NCBI GenBank assembly: GCA_947504875.1
Contig: CANNJI010000022.1
Location: 1-33,900, forward strand
Length of the DNA: 33,900 nt
DNA from: Legionellaceae bacterium
GTDB lineage: Bacteria > Pseudomonadota > Gammaproteobacteria > Legionellales > Legionellaceae
Direction of reading: 5' to 3'
Position numbers and translations under genes: made by a program
Notes under the pieces: model-generated
Told to the model about the DNA's origin: nothing
Seen by the model: the letters and a program-made list of their open reading frames with translations, nothing else
Database searches by the model: none
Part shown: one piece after another, positions 4,557 through 10,729 of the stretch
Layout of the letters: every line of letters begins with the position of its first letter
How positions within the stretch are numbered: position 1 is the first letter of the stretch

Positions 4557-4586
4557 TTGACGAATAAGATCAGGTGTAGGTATGAT
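4557..4586 (+). promoter_or_regulatory. Sigma70-like promoter for the 593-aa fusion gene
   Basis: TTGACG (4557-4562), 18-bp spacer, TATGAT (4581-4586); GTG start at 4616. Confidence 0.5.
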
Positions 4587-4615: not shown

Positions 4616-6397
4616 GTGGATGAGCTTACTGGTTTGCTTAGACCATCTTGGGGTGCTGAGAAGTGGATACTAGAAGGTTGGGACACCCTTGCGGTCGATG
4701 AGAAAAAGTTAATTAAATCCAGAATGGATGATTTGTTCAAAGACGGCCTCCCTTTTGAACTAAAATCCGATAAACTTTTTTATATTTACACCTTTTCATT
4801 ACTTGCTCAACTGGAAGTACTGGCCATTCAAGTTCCTCTTAAATTTGAAGCAAAAATGTCTACCGATGAGTATCGTGAACGGCTACATATTCAATTAATT
4901 GACGAAATTTTTCATGGCCTGGTTTTTACAAAAATTGTCTATATGCTCTGTGCCCCTTACGCAACTCCGCCTGAGTATAGCCCTCATATAGAACGATTAT
5001 GTGATTTTATTCGTAATGAAGACTGCCCAAAAACAGCACTTATGCTGCTTAATCTGGTAGGCGAGGGCTGGATTGAGGAAATTTTTTATAGTTTGGAGCG
5101 AAAGGATATTGCACCAAAAGTTTTCGAAGTCATTCTCGAAGACGAACACCGTCACGTATGTGAAGCTGATTTATATCGTGACATAGGCCTACCCGATATT
5201 GAGCTATTAAAGCCTAAGATTGCTTATTTAGAAGAACAGCTGATCACCAACATCTTTATGCAATACAAATATATTGCTTCAGTAAGCGCGCTTCTGGGTG
5301 TTGATGGCATGAAACAGTTTAAAACATCATTAGACCAAAAACATCAAGATCAGTTAAGCAAAATAGATCTCAAGCCTACTGACGATTGGAATGCATTTAT
5401 GGAATTGGGGGAAGGTTTTCTACCTCAATTAGAGCAATATGTGGCATCCAATCATGAAGTTGAAATGTCGCCCATCCGTAAAGTATTCATGACTCAATGG
5501 AGTAACCCGAGCGACCCAACCATGGCGGGTCAATTTAATGTCAATGTGAGTTGTATTGACTTTTTTAACAAAAAATTTCCCTCTGAAACAATCACCACGC
5601 TCATGATGCAGGCTATTAGTTTAGGACTCTCCCTGAATCCTTCATTTCGTAACTATGTAAATTTCAGGAAAATATTTCGCGCTGAAGACGCCTATGTTGG
5701 CCTGGTTGTCAAATTACCTGACTGCGGAGATCACATTGCTACCATTGTTTTTAAGAATTGTCACGAGCTGAGTCTTTTTGAGTTAACACATAAAATTAAA
5801 TCTATCATGAAAAAAATGGCTCATTGTTATAAAAAAAGAGAGGCCATGGAGAATGATCCTAAAATCCAGGAGTTGATGCAATCAATGATTTATGATTTTG
5901 CATACAATACCTACGATTATCCCATCGCAGGAACGCCTTTTGTTTCACTCAGTAGCATTGGATTTTGTGGTTACAATCAAGGCATGTCACCCCTTAGACG
6001 CAATGAGTCCATGAAATTCACACTCTTTGAAATTGAACGCAAGCCTGTCTGGAACAAGGAAACTCAAACGTTTGAACCAGTCGACATATTGCCCGTATCA
6101 ATCAGTGCTGATCATCGAATATTTGATGGTAATTTACCTGTACCTCAGTTGACGAACACTTATTTCAACACCATGTTTAATAAAATGCTTAATGATATGT
6201 GTAAACCACAGCCTTTACCCAATCAATCAGAACCTATAGAACCGCTGATTGACCTACTGCTCAGTAAAAACACCGAGATTACTTATAAGGCTCTGTTTTT
6301 TTTACAAACTTATTGGTTTGATTTCGTTACGGCAGATGAGTTGCTCAGTGAATATAATGACTTAGTAACCGATTATAGTACTGAGCAGATGATTTAA
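4616..6397 (+). CDS. Fusion: N-terminal ferritin-like di-iron domain and C-terminal 2-oxoacid dehydrogenase E2-type acyltransferase domain, no lipoyl domain
   Basis: 593 aa, GTG start. E67 ... E97-I-F-H100 ... E150 ... E175-D-E-H178 fits the di-iron four-helix ligand pattern. C-terminal part 'AGTPFVSLSSIGFCGYNQGMSPL' and 'SADHRIFDGN' match the E2 catalytic domain (DHRxxDG, D499-G505). Confidence 0.75.
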   Translation: MDELTGLLRPSWGAEKWILEGWDTLAVDEKKLIKSRMDDLFKDGLPFELKSDKLFYIYTFSLLAQLEVLAIQVPLKFEAKMSTDEYRERLHIQLIDEIFHGLVFTKIVYMLCAPYATPPEYSPHIERLCDFIRNEDCPKTALMLLNLVGEGWIEEIFYSLERKDIAPKVFEVILEDEHRHVCEADLYRDIGLPDIELLKPKIAYLEEQLITNIFMQYKYIASVSALLGVDGMKQFKTSLDQKHQDQLSKIDLKPTDDWNAFMELGEGFLPQLEQYVASNHEVEMSPIRKVFMTQWSNPSDPTMAGQFNVNVSCIDFFNKKFPSETITTLMMQAISLGLSLNPSFRNYVNFRKIFRAEDAYVGLVVKLPDCGDHIATIVFKNCHELSLFELTHKIKSIMKKMAHCYKKREAMENDPKIQELMQSMIYDFAYNTYDYPIAGTPFVSLSSIGFCGYNQGMSPLRRNESMKFTLFEIERKPVWNKETQTFEPVDILPVSISADHRIFDGNLPVPQLTNTYFNTMFNKMLNDMCKPQPLPNQSEPIEPLIDLLLSKNTEITYKALFFLQTYWFDFVTADELLSEYNDLVTDYSTEQMI

Positions 6398-6458: not shown

Positions 6459-6719
6459 ATGTCAGTCAGCAAATTACATCCTACGGCATTCGGCATAACT
6501 GCAGCCATCGTTATTGGGATACCTGCTATTTTGGGGGGGTTAGCCGCGCCGCTTATTTTAAATGGAAAACCCATTGCAATAGCTGCAGGAAGTATGTATG
6601 TCACCTACATACCCACCATAAATGCGGCTATTATCGGCGCAGCAGTCATTCCAGTTACTGCATATGCCGTTGCATACGTTAGTTCTTGGATATATAATTT
6701 TTTAATCAATAAATTATAG
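6459..6719 (+). CDS. Small hydrophobic (2-3 TM) membrane protein
   Basis: 86 aa; SD 'aaggag' 8 nt upstream of ATG; Ala/Gly/Ile-rich TM segments. Confidence 0.6.
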   Translation: MSVSKLHPTAFGITAAIVIGIPAILGGLAAPLILNGKPIAIAAGSMYVTYIPTINAAIIGAAVIPVTAYAVAYVSSWIYNFLINKL

Positions 6720-9565: not shown

Positions 9566-10729
9566 TTATACATTGAGCAATAAACGGGATGGATCTTCTA
9601 ACAACTCTTTTACACTTACAAGAAATTGAACAGAATCTTTACCATCAATTAAACGATGATCATAGGACAACGCCAAATACATCATGGGACGAATTACAAT
9701 TTGTCCTTTTTCAACAACAGGGCGCTCTTGAATCTTATGCATCCCCAAAATACCTGTTTGTGGCGGATTGATAATAGGTGTAGATAGCAAAGAACCAAAT
9801 ACACCACCATTTGTAATGGTAAACGTTCCGCCCTGCATATCTTCTAAAGACAATTTTCCATCTCTTGCACGTAATGCAAAATCACTGATAGACTGTTCAA
9901 GTGTGGCCATGCTTGATTGATCCGCATCACGAATCACTGGCACAACAAGACCTCGCTCCGTTGAAACAGCAATGCCAATATCATAATATCCATGATACAC
10001 AACATCGCTTCCATCAATTGACGCATTCACTGCAGGAAAACGTTTGAGAGACTCCACAACCGCTTTAGTAAAAAACGACATAAATCCGAGTTTTACACCA
10101 TGTTTCTTCTCAAAACTGTCTTTGTAGGCCGCTCGTAAATCCATCACGGCTTTCAAATTAACTTCATTAAACGTGGTCAGCATGGCTGATTGATGTTGTG
10201 CTTGTAGCAAACGCTCGGCTACTTTTGCCCTAAGGCGAGACATAGGAACCCGACGTTCCTCACGACCACCAACAGCTCCTGATGCCTGAAGCACTGGCTC
10301 AGGTTTGCGTGCTGATTCAATAAATGAAACAACATCTTCTTTCGTCAGCCGACCTTCCTTTCCACTACCAACAATTGAGGCGGGATTGAGATCATGCTCA
10401 GCTAACAGTCGACGAACAGCAGGACCCGTGCTTGTTGGCGGCACAATGGGCTCTTGGGAAACAACTGCTGCTGGTATTGTTGCAGCAACAGTTCCAGCTT
10501 GAATATGAGCAAGCACTTGTCCTGACATCACTGTAGCACCCGTTTCAAACAAACAATCTGTTAAAATACCATCCGCTGGGGCAGGTACTTCGAGTACGAC
10601 CTTATCTGTTTCAAGATCAACAATATTTTCATCACGGGTCACGCGATCACCCGCTTTTTTATGCCAAGTAGCAATTGTTGCATCCGCTACTGATTCAGGT
10701 AAAACTGGCACTTTAAGTTCAATAGACAT
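9566..10729 (-). CDS. sucB: 2-oxoglutarate dehydrogenase E2 (dihydrolipoyl succinyltransferase)
   Basis: 387 aa; lipoyl domain '[14 protein letters not shown]', E3-binding domain, catalytic '[11 protein letters not shown]'. Confidence 0.97.

Follow-up and report, generated by a model that had tools for sequence, protein, structure and literature searches.

The window analysed here is a 33,900-nucleotide stretch of a Legionellaceae contig (CANNJI010000022.1 of assembly GCA_947504875.1), and the features of its fusion locus are collected in Table 1. The gene of interest is flanked by a divergent 130-aa ORF and a gene for a small membrane protein, with the suc/sdh cluster adjoining, and it is present as a single copy in its own genome. 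The original prediction had placed this ORF at 4616-6397, and the analysis upheld it.

Table 1. Features of the fusion locus and the SucB gene of the same window, with window positions.
Feature	Position	Strand	Details and basis
Sigma70-like promoter match	4557..4586	+	TTGACG-18-TATGAT; no more frequent than chance
Di-iron / E2-CAT fusion gene	4616..6397	+	GTG start, 593 aa; ORF list, 40 related loci, alignment, AlphaFold2 model
Ferritin-like di-iron domain	4616..5455	+	Residues 1-280; model helices, hhalign to L075, aligned ligands, conservation
E2-type acyltransferase (CAT-fold) domain and variable C-terminal tail	5456..6397	+	Domain at residues ~281-530; Pfam, PDB profile, Foldseek, SucB register
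Small membrane protein	6459..6719	+	86 aa; 61 bp 3' of the fusion gene; sub-threshold NCBIfam holin_4 match
SucB	9566..10729	-	

The gene had also been credited with a sigma70-like promoter of its own. The site is present and matches at 10 of 12 positions, but the window contains six sites of this kind against 9.2 expected from shuffled sequence. Since such sites are no more frequent in the window than in shuffled sequence, the match provides no evidence of a promoter. Small genes resembling that of the downstream membrane protein border the fusion homologue on one or both sides at about 12 other loci in several species. Membership of this small protein in the same system is doubtful.

The encoded protein is a ferritin-like di-iron domain fused to an E2-type acyltransferase domain, and we assign the identity of both halves with high confidence. 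Pfam, PDB and Foldseek comparisons identified the E2 half; the di-iron half was recognised when profiles were compared with stand-alone AurF/R2lox-like proteins. The two-domain identity that had been proposed from the sequence is supported by the predicted structure, the profile matches and residue conservation. The AlphaFold2 model, calculated from 38 homologues, had a mean pLDDT of 84 and a pTM of 0.82. Structure prediction from the single sequence gave a pLDDT of 35, and this model was unusable. To our knowledge, no enzyme combining a ferritin-like di-iron domain with an E2-type acyltransferase domain has been described, and a search of the open-licence literature found no relevant papers on this architecture in Legionella or on ferritin-like proteins tied to squalene synthase.

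In the C-terminal half, the Pfam model 2-oxoacid_dh (PF00198) matched with an E value of 4.6e-12 and 46.3 bits against a cut-off of 23, with the best stretch at residues 443-506, as for an E2 catalytic domain carrying the DHRxxDG motif. PDB sequence searches matched E2p catalytic domains, and the best 50 matches listed from the Foldseek comparison of the whole model with the PDB were all E2-type catalytic cores, with E values as low as 1.9e-9 and a probability of 1.00. The original prediction had expected di-iron or ferritin-like matches in the PDB as well as E2 cores; the latter were found, but none of the best 50 listed matched the N-domain, all being taken by the E2 half. No lipoyl or E3-binding domain was matched in Pfam even at a permissive threshold, the only other match being non-significant and due to chance, and no E1 or E3 neighbour gene is conserved across the homologue loci. 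An E2-type domain lacking both accessory domains, as first proposed, is therefore confirmed. The by-eye alignment register with the window's own SucB was reproduced by BLASTP (E 0.005) and hhalign (27% probability), a similarity that is weak on its own.

The catalytic-type residues are S446, D499, H500, R501 and D504, which correspond in the E2o register to Thr323, Asp374, His375, Arg376 and Asp379, and in E2o the most important residues are Asp374 and His375 (PMC5986005). The C-terminal half would be expected to transfer acyl groups. Like E. coli AceF (4n72) and SucB, it has the CAT fold, the SSIG...DHRxFDG register and residues equivalent to the E2o set. Unlike them, it is part of a fusion protein without lipoyl or E3-binding domain and without a conserved E1 or E3 neighbour, it has an extended C-terminal tail, and its His is replaced in one clade. 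The window protein is thus no dehydrogenase-complex E2, although it may act in the manner of an E2 core. The fold class is also that of the chloramphenicol acetyltransferase-type enzymes, and a free small acceptor with acyl-CoA is plausible without a lipoyl domain; the sequence, however, is E2-type (PF00198) and not CAT-type.

In the N-terminal half, the model places E67 on helix 53-80, E97 and H100 on helix 84-112, E150 on helix 138-162 and E177 and H180 on helix 167-181. These predicted metal ligands make up a 2-His/4-carboxylate set, and the four-helix bundle carries two E...ExxH motif pairs, spaced EX28DEXXH and EX25DEXXH, as expected of ferritin-like di-iron carboxylate proteins. E67, E97, H100 and E150 had been placed correctly in the original prediction and are conserved. 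The last pair had been read as E175 and H178, which are literally present but variable, with Glu in only 29 and His in 41 of the 57 homologues. The conserved pair lies two residues further on, in D176-E177-x-R-H180, where E177 is kept in 57/57 homologues and H180 in 96%. Judging from the helix positions and the homology, the six ligands would converge in three dimensions, and the N-terminal half is predicted to bind metal and to carry out O2 chemistry.

Most non-haem di-iron hydroxylases use a 2-His/4-carboxylate set (PMC12101540). The second-shell residues D96 and D176 are invariant and correspond to the aspartates of AurF that hydrogen-bond its His ligands (PMC12101540). AzoC has EX28-37DEXXH motifs and seven ligands, the seventh being His-225 in HxxDExxH (PMC6783550). 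In the window protein, the AurF-type seventh-ligand His is absent and residue 173 is Ile, which leaves the 2-His/4-carboxylate set.

Direct PDB profile searches with the N-terminal half gave no significant match. The family profile matched a stand-alone protein of 397 aa, L075 (E 2.4e-7; hhalign probability 96.1%, E 3e-9), and six of six ligands align between the two. L075 matches PDB 6d9f, a VlmB homologue, and it matches the R2-like ligand-binding oxidase (R2lox) model below that model's cut-off. Adding L075 to the profile recruited L100-L106, most of which match R2lox models below cut-off, and L100, L102 and L103 exceed the Pfam AurF cut-off. The comparison of the family with this bridge profile gave 93.4% probability, against 0.07% for an unrelated all-helical prenyl synthase used as the control. 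A Foldseek search of a viral library matched ribonucleotide reductase R2 with E values of 0.02-0.1 (0.02-0.03 for matches at prob 1.0), which we take as supporting evidence only.

With AurF (PF11583), R2lox and the VlmB homologue 6d9f the N-terminal half thus shares the four-helix bundle, both DEXXH motifs, the second-shell Asp ahead of each ExxH Glu, and homology through the bridge proteins. It differs from the group in its attached CAT domain, and it is matched by none of the curated Pfam or NCBIfam models for these families, Pfam AurF included. Membership in AurF and in R2lox was tested for the window protein and rejected for both. In contrast to AurF, the fusion protein has six ligands (2 His/4 Glu) and no extra His; in contrast to R2lox, it has no Tyr at the cross-linking position, with Ala and Leu at residues 70 and 145, the expected places of the Tyr-Val pair. 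In R2lox, the residues of the Tyr-Val ether cross-link are near the metal site (PMC7239806).

Conservation of both sites was followed in a table of 57 rows, representing 55 distinct sequences. The six metal ligands are complete in 51 rows, and the metal and acyltransferase sites are both complete, with S/T446, H500 and D/N504 intact, in 39. Eleven rows belong to one clade of ~700-aa proteins with a long C-terminal extension, which keep the metal site and have H500 replaced by G, S, N or V; some members also lack S446. D499 is invariant throughout, this His-less clade included. Since the catalytic-type His is lost in one clade, an acyltransferase role cannot hold unchanged across the family. 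The metal site is broken in three rows, all of them N-domain-only (two distinct proteins), and the remaining rows are one without either site, two with Asp at position 67 and one contig-end fragment. The N-domain-only copies are ~282-291 aa long and are probably decaying relatives: L039 8001-8876 (the same gene as L097) has H100R, E150Q and H180L, and L098 has E150K.

A scan of named GTDB genomes found 40 loci at 39-66% identity, all in Legionella, Fluoribacter, Legionellaceae or close gammaproteobacterial MAGs, and largely missed a divergent clade of fusion proteins. The N-domain was found in 84 of 146 Legionellaceae genomes. Across the class (369 genomes) it was confined to this family plus one distant stand-alone relative, and a broader profile run across the phylum (399 genomes) matched, besides the window's gene, nothing but distant proteins that lack an E2 domain; a search of viral contigs yielded no relative. 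Because only such E2-less distant proteins were found outside the family, the fusion appears to be limited to Legionellaceae and close MAGs within this non-exhaustive genome sampling. In some Legionellaceae genomes that have no fusion gene, ordinary AurF-family (PF11583) proteins are present in its place (L107, L108 and L110).

In the main clade, the neighbours of the fusion gene vary (a Dam-type methyltransferase, Trp/Tyr amino-acid permeases, FolD, FimV), so that it mostly stands alone. In the ~700-aa His-less clade, a polyprenyl diphosphate synthase gene lies upstream on the same strand at 8/8 loci with flanks, at gaps of 9-376 bp and with a small ORF between the two in one locus, and the five near-complete genomes examined hold 3-4 polyprenyl synthases rather than 2. 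In a separate deep clade (support 100/100), a squalene-synthase-like gene lies directly downstream of the fusion gene in 8 genomes; in the PDB it matches squalene synthases best (E 3e-13), and its score lies far under the cut-off curated for squalene synthase. The two clades occupy separate places on the tree, and the loci inside each share ancestry and count as two events, not twenty. Since the other surrounding genes change between several such loci, the gene pairs look functional, and the presence of prenyl-chain genes beside the fusion gene in two clades suggests an isoprenoid substrate. This substrate class was picked after the neighbours had been seen, and the link is therefore a strong lead and not proof. 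No isoprenoid gene lies beside the fusion gene in the window's own clade, and the window's own genome has only two polyprenyl synthases and no match to squalene/phytoene synthase (SQS_PSY) in an assembly that is 92% complete. An isoprenoid link for every member was ruled out by the variable main-clade neighbours and by the absence of SQS_PSY from this genome, and an ispA-like gene near the L013 homologue was judged incidental.

Other genes recur around these loci. A multi-span membrane protein of ~255-280 aa is encoded near the polyprenyl-synthase/di-iron pair at L031 10098-10865 (-), L040 5048-5884 (+) and L131 8725-9504 (+); it has no Pfam or NCBIfam match, and a second small, glycine-rich, membrane-like protein accompanies it. 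The polyprenyl synthase, the fusion gene and the two membrane proteins possibly form a four-gene module. A divergent squalene-synthase-like gene, ~27% identical to the fusion gene's partner in the squalene-synthase-like clade, adjoins a glycosyltransferase-like gene at L127 5465-6421 (-) and L128 5448-6404 (-), with the fusion gene located elsewhere.

We tentatively propose that the fusion protein is a bifunctional oxygenase/acyltransferase, acting perhaps on an isoprenoid lipid as the likeliest substrate class, a reading that we regard as a reasonable possibility. In the order of steps that we infer, two metals (iron or Mn/Fe) would be held by the six ligands of the N-terminal domain, which would activate O2 and oxidise the substrate. 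The E2-type domain, probably trimeric with its active site at the subunit interfaces, would move an acyl group between a thioester and the oxidised product or its precursor through D499 and H500, and because there is no lipoyl domain, the thioester would most simply be acyl-CoA. The original prediction had envisaged an oxygenase-acyltransferase working on a small molecule; that general activity is still conjectural, and isoprenoid lipids are now suggested by the genes found around the fusion gene in two clades.

The isoprenoid lipid is our best current guess at the substrate, and a small amine-type metabolite is its main rival. The same fused enzyme could oxidise an amine or other small metabolite in an AurF/VlmB-like manner, and its CAT domain could acylate that metabolite, with the prenyl synthases as later recruits in two side branches. 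The nearest annotated relatives of the N-terminal half are indeed AurF/VlmB/R2lox-like, the main-clade gene is isolated among unrelated neighbours, and the window's own genome lacks SQS_PSY. However, the third His of the AurF-type N-oxygenases is missing at position 173 (Ile), and a link to isoprenoid chain enzymes exists in each of two separate clades. We consider a non-isoprenoid substrate rather unlikely.

The role of the E2-type domain itself can also be read differently, as a non-catalytic trimer-forming scaffold or a substrate-binding domain attached to a di-iron half that alone is enzymatic. In the ~700-aa clade, 11 proteins retain all six metal ligands with a replaced H500, some also without S446, which is consistent with this reading, as is the 0.5% of activity retained by the His375Asn variant of E2o (PMC5986005). 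A pure scaffold, on the other hand, would not need the residues that are intact in 39 homologues, D499 is invariant, and His375Gly retains 13% of E2o activity (PMC5986005), so some His-less members might work. A scaffold role is thus unlikely, being possible above all in the His-less clade. Restriction to Legionellaceae in the searches made, a mostly isolated gene and a variable C-terminal tail would also suit a Dot/Icm-secreted effector that works inside the host cell instead of a bacterial metabolic enzyme. This is very improbable, since the gene occurs in over half of the searched Legionellaceae genomes, it lies beside prenyl synthases in two clades, and nothing to this effect was found in the open-licence literature.

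The bifunctional oxygenase/acyltransferase reading can be taken further, as a more speculative possibility: this would be the first described di-iron oxygenase/E2-type fusion, specific to Legionellaceae, which both oxidises an isoprenoid and acylates it; one branch would produce its own long prenyl chain and another its own squalene-type precursor. That the ~700-aa clade has naturally lost the catalytic-type His provides a built-in test of the role of each half. If the proposal is true, the fusion would represent a new enzyme architecture, it would take E2-type catalytic domains past the dehydrogenase complexes to chemistry of another kind, and it would point to an oxidised, acylated isoprenoid so far undescribed in Legionella species.
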